Positions 637 through 25,299 of a DNA stretch of 64,000 nt are shown piece after piece. The notes beneath the pieces are model-generated. The model saw only the letters and a list, made by a program, of their open reading frames with translations. It did no database searches and was not told the origin of the DNA. The translations under genes were made by a program, and so were the position numbers. Within the stretch, counting starts at the first letter, position 1, and every line of letters starts with the position of its first letter. The stretch lies in NCBI GenBank assembly GCA_944376335.1, contig CALWCH010000002.1, forward strand, positions 91,504 through 155,503. Direction: 5' to 3'. This DNA is from an uncultured Clostridia bacterium (GTDB lineage: Bacteria; Bacillota; Clostridia; Christensenellales; Borkfalkiaceae).

Positions 637-2463
637 ATGGATCTATATTATAACCCGTTGGATCGGGCGTGTAAGAGCATTGTCGGCGCGATTCCAAGAA
701 AGACTGCTGTAAGGATCAATGTCTACAAAGATAAACACCTCGGCGGAGAAGATTATTTCTCCGCTGAAGTTTGTAACCTCATTTTGAGGCGCGACGAGAA
801 AAAATATCAATATTATCAGATGACCCGAACGGACTTCGGGTGGACGATTTCCTTAAAGTTCCACGAGGCCGGGCTCTTTTTCTACTGTTTTGCGATCGGC
901 GGACGGCTTCTTGGCTGCGGCGCCTTTCACAGGGGAAAGATGTTTACAAGCAACCCCGTAAACTGGCAGCTCACGGTATATGATGAGGACTATCAGACGC
1001 CAGACTGGTTTAAGGGCGGCATCATGTACCAAATCTTCCCCGACCGGTTTTACCGTTCGGGGGACGAGACGCTCAAGCACGGCATCATGCGCAAATGGGG
1101 AGAGCAGCCTTACTATCGCCCGAACGGAGAAGGAAAAGTTCTTAACAACGACTTCTTCGGCGGGAATTTAAGGGGCGTTCGCGAGAAGCTCGGCTATCTC
1201 AAGCAGCTGGGCGTCACCATCCTCTACTTCAATCCCATCTTTCAGGCGTATTCCAACCATCGCTATGATACGGGCGACTATATGGAGATCGACCCCAATC
1301 TGGGCACTAAGGAAGATTTGGATGCGCTCATTGTCGATGCAAAAAAGCTTGGGATGCGCGTCATTTTGGACGGCGTGTTCAACCACACGGGCGATGACAG
1401 CCGCTACTTCAACCGTTACGCCAATTATCCCAGCCTCGGCGCCTATCAGTCCGACCAGTCTCCATACTACGATTGGTACACCTTCCACGGCTCCCACGAT
1501 AACTATGACAGTTGGTGGGGGATCGAGACGCTGCCCGCCATCGAAGAGCGTTCTCCAAGTTATCAGAACTTCATGTTCTCGGAGGACGGCGTCATCAAGA
1601 CCTGGCTCAGGCACGGCATCGGCGGTTACCGCCTCGACGTTGCAGACGAACTTCCCGGGTTCTTCCTAAAGAAACTCAGGAAGGCCGCCAAGGAGCAGGA
1701 CCCCGACGCCATCATCATCGGTGAAGTGTGGGAGGACGCCTCTAACAAGATCGCCTACGGCGTGCGCCGCGAATACTTCCAGGGCGAGGAACTCGACAGC
1801 GTGATGAACTATCCGCTCAAGGATGCCATCATCAACTTCCTGCTCTCTGGGCACACCGCGCGGCTTCGTGAAGTCATTGCGATGCTCATCGACCACTATC
1901 CCAAGCAGACGCTCGACTGCCTCATGAACCATCTCGGCACGCACGATACGGCGCGTATCCTCACCGTCCTTGGCGGCAAGAGCTGCCATAATAAGGACGA
2001 GATGGCTGCGACTTCTCTCAACGACAAGGAGCTTGCCGCAGCAAAGGAACTGTTGAAAATGGGCGCCGTGCTGCAATTTACGCTGCCGGGCGTTCCATGC
2101 ATCTACTACGGTGACGAGATCGGCATGCAGGGCTACAGCGACCCGTTCTGCCGCGGCTGCTACGATTGGGAACACGGCGATCTGCAGCTTAGAAGTTTTT
2201 ACGAACAGTTAGGCAAGATCCGAAGCGAACTTTCCGACATATTCCGCGAAGGTGTCTACAGAGAAGTCTTTGCGACGCAGACCTTCCTCGTCTACGAGAG
2301 GAAATCGGAAGCCAGCACCTTCTATGTGTACGTCAACCGCGGCTCCTGTCAGTATCGCCTCAAATTTGATGGAACTTACAAAGACTATTTGAGCGGCGAG
2401 ACATTCCAAGATGAACACGTCGTCAAAAAGGGCGAATACGGCATCATCGCCCGTGTAAAATAA
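637..2463 (+). CDS. GH13 alpha-amylase family enzyme (neopullulanase/cyclomaltodextrinase-like)
   Basis: This predicted cytoplasmic alpha-glucan hydrolase has 608 residues and no signal peptide. An N-terminal all-beta region (about 1-125) precedes the (beta/alpha)8 barrel, which starts at GGIMYQIFPDRF. The four GH13 signature regions are present: DGVFNH, GYRLDVADE with nucleophile Asp334, IIGEVW with acid/base Glu363, and LGTHDTARI with Asp437. The ATG at 637 is preferred over an in-frame TTG at 613 because GGAAAGAG precedes it closely. The N-terminal domain and lack of export fit the neopullulanase or maltogenic branch, but substrate specificity cannot be read from sequence. It follows glgP and is closed by a strong terminator. 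Confidence 0.9.
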   Translation: MDLYYNPLDRACKSIVGAIPRKTAVRINVYKDKHLGGEDYFSAEVCNLILRRDEKKYQYYQMTRTDFGWTISLKFHEAGLFFYCFAIGGRLLGCGAFHRGKMFTSNPVNWQLTVYDEDYQTPDWFKGGIMYQIFPDRFYRSGDETLKHGIMRKWGEQPYYRPNGEGKVLNNDFFGGNLRGVREKLGYLKQLGVTILYFNPIFQAYSNHRYDTGDYMEIDPNLGTKEDLDALIVDAKKLGMRVILDGVFNHTGDDSRYFNRYANYPSLGAYQSDQSPYYDWYTFHGSHDNYDSWWGIETLPAIEERSPSYQNFMFSEDGVIKTWLRHGIGGYRLDVADELPGFFLKKLRKAAKEQDPDAIIIGEVWEDASNKIAYGVRREYFQGEELDSVMNYPLKDAIINFLLSGHTARLREVIAMLIDHYPKQTLDCLMNHLGTHDTARILTVLGGKSCHNKDEMAATSLNDKELAAAKELLKMGAVLQFTLPGVPCIYYGDEIGMQGYSDPFCRGCYDWEHGDLQLRSFYEQLGKIRSELSDIFREGVYREVFATQTFLVYERKSEASTFYVYVNRGSCQYRLKFDGTYKDYLSGETFQDEHVVKKGEYGIIARVK

Positions 2464-2470
2464 GAAAAAC

Positions 2471-2504
2471 AAGGATACTATGTCACGCATAGTATCCTTT
2501 TTCT
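2471..2504 (+). terminator. Rho-independent terminator after the GH13 gene
   Basis: A perfect 12-bp stem (2471-2482 with 2488-2499) with a 5-nt loop is followed by a T-rich tract. The stem core is one copy of a dispersed palindromic repeat also found inside the gene at 16115-17356. Confidence 0.9.
2473..2494. repeat. Dispersed palindromic repeat, copy A
   Basis: These 22 bases are identical to 16916-16937, which lie inside the BaiN-like coding sequence. This copy is part of the terminator hairpin of the GH13 gene. A diverged copy lies at 6225-6246. Confidence 0.75.
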
Positions 2505-2689
2505 ATAGAAAATCAGATATGCCCTCTACGAAATATCAGGATTTCAGCTGAGTTTTCACTAATGCGACTAAAGATCGCTGTCAATGCGAGCGAACATCTC
2601 CAAATATCGGTGCGGCTATAATTGCTTGACGATTTGTCGGAAACCGGGCGTCAGAACAAATTCGTCCTCATAAAACAGCTTTTTATGCC

Positions 2690-2725
2690 TAACTATTCTT
2701 AAAATCGGCATTTTGCGAATAGTTA
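2690..2725. repeat. 36-bp imperfect palindrome at the left end of the cassette (att/dif-like)
   Basis: The outer arms TAACTATTC and GAATAGTTA are perfectly inverted, and a second pair of arms, AAAAT and ATTTT, flanks a 4-bp centre. The overall form, two inverted arms around a short asymmetric core, resembles a tyrosine-recombinase site. Its right two thirds are repeated exactly at 3728-3751. A hairpin with another role cannot be excluded. Confidence 0.6.
2702..2725. repeat. 24-bp direct repeat, left copy
   Basis: It is identical over 24 bases to 3728-3751. The stop codon of the small gene 2723-2920 lies in its last three bases. Fifteen of its bases (2702-2716) also match 16942-16956 on the opposite strand. 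Confidence 0.9.
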
Positions 2726-2920
2726 ATGCTCTACCCTTGCAAGCCACTCTGCCAGCTTCATTTTTGCAAACACGCGCTGCATGTGCGCTGCACAGGCCTT
2801 TGACGTTTTCTCGGAGAAGTACTCGAAGTAGTTGTAACGCCACGAGAAGAACATAACGCGGAAGCACCGGCGGGACGTACGTACCACGATGAACTCATCT
2901 ACGATTGAAATCAACTTCAT
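2723..2920 (-). CDS. Small uncharacterised protein of the repeat-bounded cassette (65 aa)
   Basis: I do not recognise this family. The predicted product has 65 residues and is basic and aromatic-rich, beginning MKLISIVDEFIVV and containing CFRVMFFSWRYNYFEYF. There is no clear signal peptide. The ATG at 2920 lies inside the preceding 35-codon gene (26-bp overlap), and a GGAGAAGAG stretch about 16 nt upstream could serve as ribosome binding site, suggesting translational coupling. Its TAA stop falls within the left 24-bp repeat. It would be the last gene of the repressor-controlled operon transcribed from about 3206. Toxin, excision or satellite-type roles are all possible but unsupported. Confidence 0.45.
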   Translation of the reverse strand: MKLISIVDEFIVVRTSRRCFRVMFFSWRYNYFEYFSEKTSKACAAHMQRVFAKMKLAEWLARVEH

Positions 2921-3002
2921 AAGAAGTATACTCTTTCTCTTCTCCGGTCTCATTATCGATAAACTTCAAACCTTCGGTAACTTCAAGCTCCAAGACCTTC
3001 AT
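2895..3002 (-). CDS. 35-aa acidic small protein with a consensus Shine-Dalgarno
   Basis: This is a short gene starting MKVLELEVTEGLKFIDNE and ending in an acidic, aromatic stretch before a TGA at 2895-2897. The best argument for translation is the ribosome binding site AAAGGAGGTGA, seven bases upstream of the ATG, one of the strongest in the window. It overlaps the 3' end of the upstream small gene by 20 bp and the start of the downstream one by 26 bp, as in tightly packed phage operons. The function is unknown. It could also act as a leader peptide that couples translation of the 65-aa gene. Confidence 0.5.
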   Translation of the reverse strand: MKVLELEVTEGLKFIDNETGEEKEYTSYEVDFNRR

Positions 3003-3156
3003 CAGTTTCACCTCCTTTGATATATTTTACCTCAAGCACCTTCAGGGTCCTTTTGAGATCTTCCAAACGCACAGATTCTTGCTTTTTAAGCTCCAAAGCC
3101 TTTATAGCAAGTTTTAACGTAGTCCAGGCGCCGCGATAATTACTCTGCTTTTTCAT
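2983..3156 (-). CDS. Small basic protein, first gene of the repressed operon (57 aa)
   Basis: The predicted product has 57 residues, starts MKKQSNYRGAW and is rich in Lys and Leu, with a helix-prone middle. I recognise no family. The ATG at 3156 is the first ATG; an in-frame GTG at 3180 has no ribosome binding site, and GTGAGG lies 18 bases before the ATG, so the true start is uncertain and may be a non-ATG codon in between. The gene is the first downstream of a strong promoter (-35 3236-3241, -10 3213-3218) whose spacer is filled by a palindromic operator, so it should be silent while the divergent repressor is present. Confidence 0.45.
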   Translation of the reverse strand: MKKQSNYRGAWTTLKLAIKALELKKQESVRLEDLKRTLKVLEVKYIKGGETDEGLGA

Positions 3157-3191
3157 AATCAGCCAGATCGGCAACCTCACAAAAATAAATT

Positions 3192-3255
3192 TACCTAATT
3201 AGGTATATCAGGATTATAGCATACCTTTTAAGGTAAGTCAATACCTAAAAAGGTA
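3192..3255. promoter_or_regulatory. Three palindromic operators between the repressor and the small-gene operon
   Basis: Three 14-bp sites share the arms TACCT and AGGTA: 3192-3205 (perfect palindrome), 3222-3235 and 3242-3255. The middle site exactly fills the spacer of the leftward promoter, the first lies at its likely transcription start, and the third overlaps the presumed -35 zone of the repressor's own promoter. The layout resembles the lambda O1-O2-O3 switch. The binding protein is inferred to be the HTH protein at 3276. Confidence 0.8.
3213..3241 (-). promoter_or_regulatory. Sigma-A promoter of the small-gene operon
   Basis: On the minus strand TTGACT (3236-3241) and TATAAT (3213-3218) are separated by 17 bp. 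The spacer contains the middle operator, so bound repressor would exclude RNA polymerase. Confidence 0.8.
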
Positions 3256-3275
3256 AAAAGTAGTAAAATTTTTCC

Positions 3276-3548
3276 ATGTTTAAAGAAATATTAAAAGATT
3301 TAATGCAGGAAAAACAAATCAATATGTCGCAACTCAGCAAGCAAGCAAAAATACCGATCACAACAATAAGTGGTTGGCTGAACGCGGACAGACTACCAGA
3401 CTACAACGCACTTATCAAATTAAGAATCTATTTTAACGTCACGGCAGACTATCTCTTAGGCCTCGAGGACGAGACAGGCGCTAAGACCTACCAGAGCGGC
3501 AAGTACGTCATAGGCACCATCTCAGGCGCTAAAATTGACCTGCACTAA
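3276..3548 (+). CDS. CI/Cro-like helix-turn-helix repressor (90 aa)
   Basis: This is a single-domain XRE-family DNA-binding protein. The HTH covers about residues 15-55, with LSQLSKQAKI-type helix 2 (here MSQLSKQAKIP) and recognition helix ITTISGWLNADRLP, followed by the family's typical FNVTADYLLGL. A 25-residue tail has no protease or oligomerisation domain. The ATG at 3276 lacks a ribosome binding site, and a TAAAAT -10 element ends 6 bp before it, so the mRNA may be leaderless, as is lambda cI from PRM. The three operators immediately upstream are its likely targets. It probably represses the divergent small genes and tunes its own level. Confidence 0.85.
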   Translation: MFKEILKDLMQEKQINMSQLSKQAKIPITTISGWLNADRLPDYNALIKLRIYFNVTADYLLGLEDETGAKTYQSGKYVIGTISGAKIDLH

Positions 3549-3727
3549 GCCCCGCAAGAGGCTATTAGAGGGACAAGGCAGCCACGGGGCAATTTATCTC
3601 GCACGGCACCCTTAAAATCGTCTCTGAGAAGCTCTCAGAGGCTGCATTTAAGGGGGATGAGTGCCTCACCCCCCTTACCCCCCATCAGGCAAAAAAAGAG
3701 GCGCACTTTTTGTGCGTCTCAATTTCC
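3549..3727. other. Non-coding tail of the cassette with folded structures
   Basis: No gene is supported here. The stretch contains a bulged hairpin (3609-3654): an outer stem, 3609-3616 with 3647-3654, and an inner stem, 3622-3628 with 3634-3640, separated by unpaired 5- and 6-nt spacers. A minus-strand terminator follows. The two-block hairpin resembles folded recombination sites in shape only. Confidence 0.5.
3691..3720 (-). terminator. Minus-strand terminator at the cassette right end
   Basis: Stem 3698-3706 with 3712-3720 is followed on the minus strand by seven T. It would stop transcripts entering the cassette leftward from the recombinase side and so insulate the repressor gene from antisense transcription. 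Confidence 0.7.
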
Positions 3728-3751
3728 AAATCGGCATTTTGCGAATAGTTA
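3728..3751. repeat. 24-bp direct repeat, right copy
   Basis: It is identical to 2702-2725. Unlike the left copy it is not preceded by the inverted arm TAACTATTC, as expected if only the core and one arm are shared by the two junctions of an inserted element. A related 13-base stretch, ACTATTCGTAAAA, lies in inverted orientation at 3858-3870, just before the recombinase gene. Confidence 0.9.
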
Positions 3752-3939
3752 TGTCTGTCTCCTCTTTGGTTGTTTTCTCTCGAAGTATAAAAATTTTCTC
3801 GGATCGACGGGGAAGAATATCCATAATTTGCTCTCGGAATGAGGCCTTATCGTTATGACTATTCGTAAAAGTTCCAACTCTGCGTAAAATATTTGTCTCT
3901 GCGATTGACGCCCGCCCTCATCCGTGCTATAATATACGC

Positions 3940-4995
3940 ATGAAGCAAGATTACTATCAAGAACGCAATCTCAAAAATCTCGACCGCATCGAGGGCCTGC
4001 TTGCGGAGCTTCCCCCGTTCTGCGAAGATTTTCTGCGCGGTGTGGAGATGCGCACAAGCGTTCTCACACGTCTCAACTATTGTTACGATCTTCGCATTTT
4101 TTTCGATTTCCTCGTCAAGAAACGCATTCGCGGCAAGCAGGTCACGGAGATCACGCTCGAGGATCTTGAACGCGTCACGGATACCGACCTTGAGATTTAT
4201 TTGAGCTATCTCTCCAACTACACCTTCCGCGGCAAGCGGCTCTCGTGCGATGAACGAGCCAAGGCGCGCAAGCTCTCCGCCGTGCGTTCCCTCTTCAAAT
4301 ACTTCTTCAACAAGGGGCTTGTTGAAGTCAACAACACGGCCAAAGTCCCGACGCCCAAGCTGCACGAGAAGGAGATCATCCGCCTTGAGCAGGATGAGGT
4401 CTCCTCCCTTCTCGATGCTGCGGAGGAGGGAAATGGCATTTCTGCGCACGCCGAGGGCTATCACGCCAAGACGAAAGTGCGCGATACCGCCATTCTCACC
4501 CTCTTTTTAGGGACGGGCATCCGTATCTCCGAGCTCGTCGGACTCAATAATGAAAGTATTGACTTTTCGACAAATTCCTTTCTTATTACCCGCAAGGGCG
4601 GCAATCAGGCTGTGCTGTATTTTTCCGAGGAAGTCGGGGATGCGCTTGCGGCCTATCTCGCCCAAAAGGAGGAGGACCCCCGCGTTCCTCCCGAGGAGCA
4701 TGCCCTCTTTCTCTCCATGCAATATCGGCGCATCACCGTGCGCGCTGTCGAAAATCTCGTCAAAAAATACGCAAAAATCGTCTCCCCTCTCAAAAAAATC
4801 ACACCGCACAAGCTGCGTTCGACGTACGGCACTGCCCTCTACCGTGAGACGGGCGATATCTACATCGTCGCCGATGTACTGGGGCATAAGGATGTGAACA
4901 CGACGAGAAAGCACTATGCCGCCATTACGGAAGATCACAGAAAGTCGGTCGCCAACGTTATCCATCTCAGAAACAATAAAAAGGATAATACATGA
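3940..4995 (+). CDS. XerS-like tyrosine recombinase
   Basis: This is a site-specific tyrosine recombinase of 351 residues. The N-terminal SAM-like core-binding domain spans about 1-135 and the catalytic domain 145-345. The full catalytic set is visible: Arg195 (GTGIRISEL), Lys219 (TRKGGNQ), His290 and Arg293 (TPHKLRSTYG), His316 (LGHKDV) and Tyr326. Length and N-terminal layout resemble streptococcal XerS, a single-protein chromosome-dimer resolvase, more than the roughly 300-residue XerC/XerD. Its last four bases overlap the hflX start (ATGA), which ties it to the chromosome rather than to the neighbouring cassette. XerS sites normally lie next to xerS, and the nearby palindromic repeats are candidates. 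Confidence 0.85.
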   Translation: MKQDYYQERNLKNLDRIEGLLAELPPFCEDFLRGVEMRTSVLTRLNYCYDLRIFFDFLVKKRIRGKQVTEITLEDLERVTDTDLEIYLSYLSNYTFRGKRLSCDERAKARKLSAVRSLFKYFFNKGLVEVNNTAKVPTPKLHEKEIIRLEQDEVSSLLDAAEEGNGISAHAEGYHAKTKVRDTAILTLFLGTGIRISELVGLNNESIDFSTNSFLITRKGGNQAVLYFSEEVGDALAAYLAQKEEDPRVPPEEHALFLSMQYRRITVRAVENLVKKYAKIVSPLKKITPHKLRSTYGTALYRETGDIYIVADVLGHKDVNTTRKHYAAITEDHRKSVANVIHLRNNKKDNT

Positions 4996-25071: not shown

Positions 25072-25299
25072 GCGCTGAGAAGAGGAGCGGCCGAACAAGA
25101 GTACTGCTTTTGAGGAAGAAGAGGCTTCCGAAGAAGGAGCAGGAAAGGGTATCGCCGCCGAAACGGATGCGCGTCCTCTCGCTTTCCGTTGGGAATAAGG
25201 GAGAATACCTTTATTACTGTCACCGCGGTGATGCGCTTTCGGCGGACCCATGTGGGGAACGAAAAGAGGCAGGGCGGTGAAGTTCACCGCCTTTTTTGC
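25072..25299 (+). promoter_or_regulatory. Lysine riboswitch (L box) with terminator
   Basis: The leader contains the conserved L-box blocks in order: AGAGGAGCGGCCGAACAAGA followed by GTACTGC, then GAAAGGGTATCGCCGCCGAA, then the CTGTCACCGCGG segment. These match the lysC leader of Bacillus subtilis block by block. The expression platform ends in a perfect terminator (25273-25291, then six T). Lysine binding should favour termination and reduce asd-dapA-dapB expression. Confidence 0.92.

Follow-up and report, generated by a model that had tools for sequence, protein, structure and literature searches.

How could a DNA segment of about 1 kb come to lie between two perfect direct repeats, next to a gene for a tyrosine recombinase, if it encodes no such enzyme itself? 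The question is raised by a 64-kb stretch of the genome of an uncultured Clostridia bacterium (GenBank assembly GCA_944376335.1, contig CALWCH010000002.1), called the window hereafter, to which all coordinates refer unless a locus is named. The host assembly is 86.4% complete and consists of 44 contigs, the genus used for comparison is Candidatus Gallimonas, and G and L numbers designate the genomes and loci compared. The segment, named here the cassette, is very probably the remnant of a Candidatus Gallimonas inovirus, that is, a filamentous phage, integrated at the chromosomal site dif by means of the XerS-like recombinase of the host.

A cassette bounded by a 24-bp repeat

The two 24-bp copies are identical, with a distance of 1026 bp from start to start, and the XerS-like open reading frame (ORF) begins 188 bp past the right one. 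A first-pass annotation of the same DNA had described these repeats, a palindrome resembling a recombinase site over the left copy, the neighboring XerS-like gene, a repressor and its operators, all of which are recovered here, the operators as palindromes that are operator-like by sequence. It had also called the segment AT-rich, which is correct in part: the 2-kb bin 2001-4000 has a GC content of 45.0%, not the lowest of the bins, the other 31 ranging from 44.6% to 62.3%. Moreover, the annotation had allowed that the 24-bp sequence could be a common repeat unrelated to the cassette ends; the window's assembly contains the two copies described and no others, even when up to three mismatches are allowed. 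Scans of the cassette ORFs against Pfam, phrog and NCBIfam gave no integrase-like ORF. Also, no long DNA relative of the cassette is found in the 102 other genomes of the genus, where only matches of 45-64 bases occur, in 8 of them.

The left repeat belongs to a conserved dif-like site

The palindrome that spans the left repeat, TAACTATTCTTAAAAT-CGGC-ATTTTGCGAATAGTTA, is 88% complementary. The left repeat corresponds to the core plus the right arm of a 34-bp palindrome whose 6-bp core is variable across the genus, and a degenerate pattern of this palindrome is found in 56 of 61 genus genomes (reversed control, 0/61), at one place in 54 of them and at two in G008 and G074. With up to four mismatches, the dif-like site is observed upstream of xerS in 71 of 80 loci, at a distance of 118-1129 bp (median 178); for the window, this distance is 223 bp once the cassette is subtracted. 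In the order as a whole, the pattern is present in 62 of 121 sampled genomes and the control in none, nearness to xerS being outside this count, and the pattern was not found in two genomes of other genera within the same family.

On the 155-kb contig, the ORFs of at least 100 amino acids (aa), picked mechanically, number 47 on the plus and 24 on the minus strand before the site and 13 and 36 after it, and the GC skew passes from +0.026 to -0.013. This switch of ORF orientation and GC skew is as expected near a replication terminus. The palindrome looks like the chromosomal dif of the host, at which chromosome dimers would be resolved. The best NCBIfam match of the adjacent recombinase is the XerS model NF003462 (E 1.5e-59), with a score of 201.6 bits that lies below the cut-off of 267, and for this reason the protein is termed XerS-like only. 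Among the 24 genus genomes that are at least 90% complete, a single Xer match is found in 15, and the extra matches in the other nine are 24-31% identical.

For the nine xerS loci without an adjacent site, a prophage lies between dif and xerS in L335 (G107) and L336 (G100), the sequence of L323 and L344 stops at contig ends, dif and xerS are on different contigs in L349, L361 and L368 (G031, G035 and G036), and L316 and L333 have altered sites. The site of L333 (2680-2807) is disrupted, with an exact right arm 114 bp past the start of the left arm, and that of L316 (2830-2867) has a 10-base centre. In G035 and G036 (L092, L093, L264, L265), dif is still found beside the amylase gene and xerS is elsewhere, both well inside contigs, reflecting either a large insertion or a rearrangement. 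Larger gaps between dif and xerS in some other species might be old scars; in the 1.1-kb gap of G020, no second right arm was found within two mismatches.

Relatives with the same core have an empty site

The core of the window's site, TCGGCA, is shared by 5 of the 71 loci, and all five are empty, with no second copy of the repeat and no cassette. The first-pass annotation had proposed searching relatives for such single-copy sites, and every same-core locus provides one. Right of the empty site, the relatives resume much like the window (e.g. TATGTCTGTCTCC in L293), and over longer stretches the flanks align at 114-128 of the 188 downstream bases and at 132-152 of the 230 upstream ones. Three of these loci are contigs of G001, G034 and G079; in G034, one base of the left arm is altered and the gap to xerS is longer, 341 bp from the site start. 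These sites bear on an alternative in which the repeats would be a product of chance or of misassembly in an ordinary intergenic region. The assembly is indeed fragmented, with its 44 contigs; nonetheless, a perfect 24-bp repeat exactly at a conserved dif-like site, together with five same-core relatives that lack the insert, makes this explanation extremely improbable.

Two inoviruses share a gene and an attachment-like half-site with the cassette

The ORF at the left end of the cassette, next to the attachment (att) site, shows 52.8% identity over about 53 aa (E 9e-13) to XHH63919.1, a protein encoded by the 6,064-bp inovirus bajarodino virus 51. The relatives aligned with it are mostly 95-130 aa long. 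The ORF spans positions 46-111 of the 112 of the family profile and thus lacks the gene's first half. The att-proximal proteins of bajarodino viruses 51 and 4 are 44% identical (E 2e-20). Shortly past this gene, each of the two viruses has an exact half-site followed by a divergent arm, being AACTATTCGCAAAA-CACAGC in virus 51 and AACTATTCGTAAAA-TGCAGC in virus 4. Read on the opposite strand, the core becomes GCTGTG in virus 51 and GCTGCA in virus 4. These are the two most frequent cores of the 71 Gallimonas sites (11 and 9), and no exact half-site on the same strand arose in 300 base shuffles of each virus genome. The exact half-site with its core is, in viruses 51 and 4, the predicted phage attachment site, attP. 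Both viruses (PQ006112.1 and PQ006137.1), which thus share the att-proximal gene, the exact half-site and a Gallimonas core, are complete circular genomes of 6.1 kb whose records give an animal source and no bacterial host.

In the viral contigs, no relative was found for the att-proximal gene profile, for the left-end ORF or for the repressor, and no contig has the exact 22-base core plus arm. The Rep genes of inoviruses 16, 17, 31 and 73 contain half-site-like matches, and inoviruses 17 and 73 also have weaker ones at other places; all of these were judged to be coding or due to chance.

Sites of this kind are also seen in other viral sequences. The microviruses bajarodmic 231 and 400 (L382, L383) have intergenic sites like a whole dif, with 90.9% and 87.9% identity over 33 bases, and a second family of single-stranded DNA phages may, given these sites, exploit the dif system. 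Among the 120 viral-contig loci listed from a one-arm scan (L141-L260), a second arm is present within three mismatches in 74 and within one mismatch in 56 (reversed control, 0). Finally, two genomes have isolated dif half-sites, in L261 (at about 920) and L262 (at about 4244), each adjoining a gene of one small family; in L261, an ORF that we take to be parA-like lies 4 kb from the half-site.

Prophages occupy the same site in sister genomes

The profile of the att-proximal gene matches in 3 of 103 genus genomes, those of the window, G100 and G107, and in 4 of 297 genomes of the order, where the two outside the genus are weak (E 2.8e-6 and 6.4e-4). In both sister genomes a prophage is adjoined by a hybrid site resembling the right end of the cassette (attR). 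In G100, 7.6 kb separate the hybrid site, near xerS, from an intact dif, both with the core TCATTG, and the genes of this unit encode a Rep protein (PF01719, over the cut-off), a Zot-family ATPase scoring 22.8 bits against a cut-off of 20.3, a repressor and the att-proximal protein. In G107, the order is the amylase gene, an intact dif, the att-proximal gene, a Rep gene (PF01446, the domain being over the cut-off), membrane-type and ATPase-like genes, a divergent repressor and the hybrid site, which repeats the layout and orientation of the window cassette over a unit of 6.2 kb. Pfam gives no match for the ATPase-like protein, which resembles only a phage family of unknown function, and that weakly; the unit is termed inovirus-like because its att-proximal gene is 50% identical to that of virus 51 and because of its layout. 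In the genus, Zot-family genes are found in 15 of 103 genomes, in 14 of them over the cut-off. The insertion at a Xer site and the phage relic put forward in the first-pass annotation both gain support from these sequences: the empty sites, the dif-like site kept beside xerS, the attP-like half-sites and the prophages at the same place.

Two further arrangements are observed in these genomes. In G100 (L372, 10429-10588), an extra half-site begins 126 bp before the intact dif, between the att-proximal gene and dif; the phage may have had two att sites, or this one may stem from an earlier insertion. In G107 (L374, 2115-7737), a second inovirus-like unit stands in tandem before xerS, with a match to another protein of virus 51.

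Several points weigh against descent from an inovirus. Only one cassette ORF is clearly inoviral, over about 53 aa, and its comparison with the two virus 4 records (E 0.7) is not significant alone. For the two other small ORFs no relative is significant, since one comparison in 40 reached p <= 0.01, which is the level of chance, and the repressor is of a widespread type, matched at E <= 0.001 in 61 of 61 genus genomes. Within the genus, the att-proximal profile matches only the three genomes named. As for the sites, the half-site next to the gene in G100 has the core CACCGA, not the TCATTG of the host, and a simple model does not explain it; in G107, the cores of dif (TCGGTG) and of the hybrid site (TTGGTG) are one base apart, and this genome is not among the 15 with a Zot-family match. 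Also, inoviruses 16, 17, 31 and 73 have the related gene with only inexact half-sites, mostly in coding Rep sequence.

The single inoviral ORF, and the sites of this kind in two microviruses and many viral contigs, would suit another kind of mobile element that had borrowed only the dif site and one inovirus gene. Against this, the order and orientation of the dif, the att-proximal gene, the small leftward ORFs, the divergent repressor, the hairpins and the hybrid att match those of the G107 unit at the same locus, and we consider such a borrowing very unlikely.

Integration and internal deletion

On descent from an inovirus, the attP of the phage would comprise one dif arm and the 6-bp core of the host beside a divergent arm. 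The XerS of the host would join attP to dif. A hybrid site would result towards xerS, and towards the amylase gene an intact dif, needed by the host, would stay after integration. An internal deletion of about 5 kb, by comparison with the 6.2-kb unit of G107, would have removed the replication, coat and assembly genes, either before integration (as a miniphage) or after it (by decay). Both att ends would have been kept, together with the repressor and the three operator-like palindromes, the small ORFs, one half of the att-proximal gene and a hairpin-rich segment; any residual function of the remnant would be immunity. The cassette combines insertion at dif, a dif mimic with a shared arm and core, and the lack of its own recombinase, which by sequence are the marks of an integrative mobile element exploiting Xer (IMEX), and the homologous gene and attP layout are those of Inoviridae descent. 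No assembly ATPase, coat or replication protein is found in its 1 kb, so that it is not a complete Inoviridae phage. The first-pass annotation had seen a very small Xer-dependent element, possibly a phage-satellite relic. The phage relic is retained here; the parent would be a filamentous phage instead of a satellite of unspecified kind, and the small size seems to result from an internal deletion, not from a native length of 1 kb.

Filamentous miniphages are deletion derivatives in which the intergenic origin and the packaging region are preserved. A mini variant of M13 is on record (in the part of PMC10480500 cited here). The cassette could be a living, helper-dependent integrated miniphage, compatible with inovirus descent, which would keep attP, the repressor and, in its hairpin-rich part, an origin or packaging region, would obtain replication, coat and assembly functions in trans from a co-infecting inovirus, and would be integrated and excised by XerS. 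For this speak the retention of both ends, of the repressor ORF in intact form, of the operator-like palindromes and of the hairpin-rich segment, the strong hairpins at the same end of the two prophages, the unmutated right repeat and the Zot-family genes of the genus. Nonetheless, the cassette is single copy in its assembly, the other genus genomes hold no long relative of it, no viral contig has its exact core and arm, and no Zot-family match is found in its own 86.4%-complete assembly, which leaves a living miniphage a doubtful possibility. Equally tentative, and rather unlikely in our estimation, is a 1,026-bp helper-dependent filamentous-phage satellite, integrated as a miniphage, that retains attP, the repressor with its operators and an origin or packaging hairpin, is carried into and out of dif by the host XerS and may confer immunity to related inoviruses. 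This satellite would, to our knowledge, be smaller than any IMEX. Were the stub still mobile, it would represent a phage satellite of very small size.

Relation to known Xer-dependent elements

The use of XerCD and dif by filamentous phages is already known. The Vibrio phages CTXphi, VGJphi and TLCphi use the Xer recombinases of the host and insert at chromosomal dif, and the attP of CTXphi and TLCphi is like one dif arm and divergent in the other (PMC5357621, in the sections cited here). These filamentous IMEX phages depend on XerC and XerD, whereas here a site for a single XerS-like recombinase, a member of the Clostridia and a stub element are involved. The att logic proposed above is that published for filamentous phages with XerCD (PMC5357621, PMC7307601) and for LME-1 with XerL (PMC9765430), as given in the parts of these reports cited. 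Legionella LME-1 is described there as an IMEX of the single recombinase XerL that has the wild-type dif at only one of its ends, the opposite end having a modified dif (PMC9765430); it differs from the cassette in recombinase, phylum and element, and the cited part of that report does not call it filamentous. The difSL of streptococci and lactococci is presented as an asymmetric 31-bp site with an 11-bp centre (PMC5357621, same sections). The cassette site is not a difSL, being 34 bp long with 14-bp arms and a variable 6-bp core; as in XerS/difSL, it adjoins the recombinase gene. XerS is reported beyond streptococci in Lactobacillus helveticus (PMC3025954, in the part cited). In a literature search that omitted most subscription journals, no report was found that joins inoviruses to XerS or to a Firmicutes dif, and no paper on the bajarodino viruses.

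The locus links a dif-like site that recurs in an order of Clostridia, filamentous phages that apparently exploit it and the likely hosts of rodent-gut inoviruses. Moreover, agreement of the cores in attP and dif would provide a testable rule for predicting hosts.

Features of the cassette and of the region upstream of xerS

Table 1. Coordinates of the cassette, its attachment sites and the adjoining recombinase gene in the window.
Feature	Position	Strand	Remarks
Intact dif-like XerS site (attL)	2690..2725	.	14-bp arms, 6-bp core TCGGCA
Left 24-bp direct repeat	2702..2725	.	Core + right arm of dif
ORF with 3' half of inovirus att-proximal gene	2723..2953	-	N-terminus unrelated
Cassette body	2726..3727	.	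Read as inovirus stub with large internal deletion
35-aa ORF	2895..3002	-	GGAGG ribosome-binding-site-like sequence
65-aa ORF	2983..3180	-	GTG start, shorter from inner ATG; putative early gene overlapping next
Operator-like palindrome 1, ACCTAATTAGGT	3193..3204	.	
Operator-like palindrome 2, ACCTTTTAAGGT	3223..3234	.	
Operator-like palindrome 3, ACCTAAAAAGGT	3243..3254	.	
Cro/CI-type repressor, 90 aa	3276..3548	+	
Hairpin-rich non-coding end	3590..3727	.	DNA fold z -4.44 (+), -3.96 (-)
Right 24-bp direct repeat (attR)	3728..3751	.	Core + right arm kept, left arm divergent (TCTCAATTTCCAAAT)
Extra XerS half-site	3857..3870	.	1 mismatch; second at 3876-3889, 2 mismatches
XerS-like tyrosine recombinase, 351 aa	3940..4995	+	Host gene, outside cassette

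The three tiny genes of the first-pass annotation are seen differently now: one holds the 3' half of the inovirus gene described above, and the other two are ORFs without convincing relatives, whose alternative lengths are 35-38 and 56-65 aa. The 35-aa ORF is possibly, at a guess, a truncated early gene; its identification as a cut-down copy of a 60-63-aa early gene was not supported by a shuffle test. For the 65-aa ORF, no relative was found in viral contigs or phages.

The repressor matches Pfam HTH_3 (30.5 bits, cut-off 23) and phrog_8 (E 1.5e-14), and its best NCBIfam match is the RstR family NF041951, at 31.2 bits far under the cut-off of 80. Its matches elsewhere were set aside because this helix-turn-helix type is widespread. 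The ACCTN4AGGT palindromes, of which the whole window has three, all at 3193-3254, sit between the repressor and the leftward ORFs and would act as operators. In G119 (L136, 1297-1546), a match of 45-46 bases to the operator region 3212-3256 is observed near an ORF that shares 50% identity with the repressor over 60 aa; this may be a phage that has the operators of the cassette.

The hairpin-rich end is a possible phage origin or packaging region. The corresponding ends give z values of -5.05 in G107 and -3.69 in G100, and virus 51 gives -4.84 in one of three stretches tried, with weak folds at 4015-4160 (z 0.15) and 4160-4305 (z -0.65). In the cassette itself, folds are weak at 3549-3690 (z -1.79 on the plus and -2.70 on the minus strand) and at 3552-3700 (z -1.51).

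Upstream of xerS, a half-site with at most two mismatches lies within 130 bp of the gene in 68 of the 78 loci whose upstream sequence is long enough. TTGAC comes after it in 60, and this arrangement suggests that XerS represses its own promoter. In the window (3928-3942), 6 nt separate the end of a TATAAT from the ATG of xerS, as they do in five of six relatives compared, the sixth having TATACT; judged from this position, the xerS mRNA may be leaderless. Finally, a lysine riboswitch at 25072-25246 of the window is an ordinary one.
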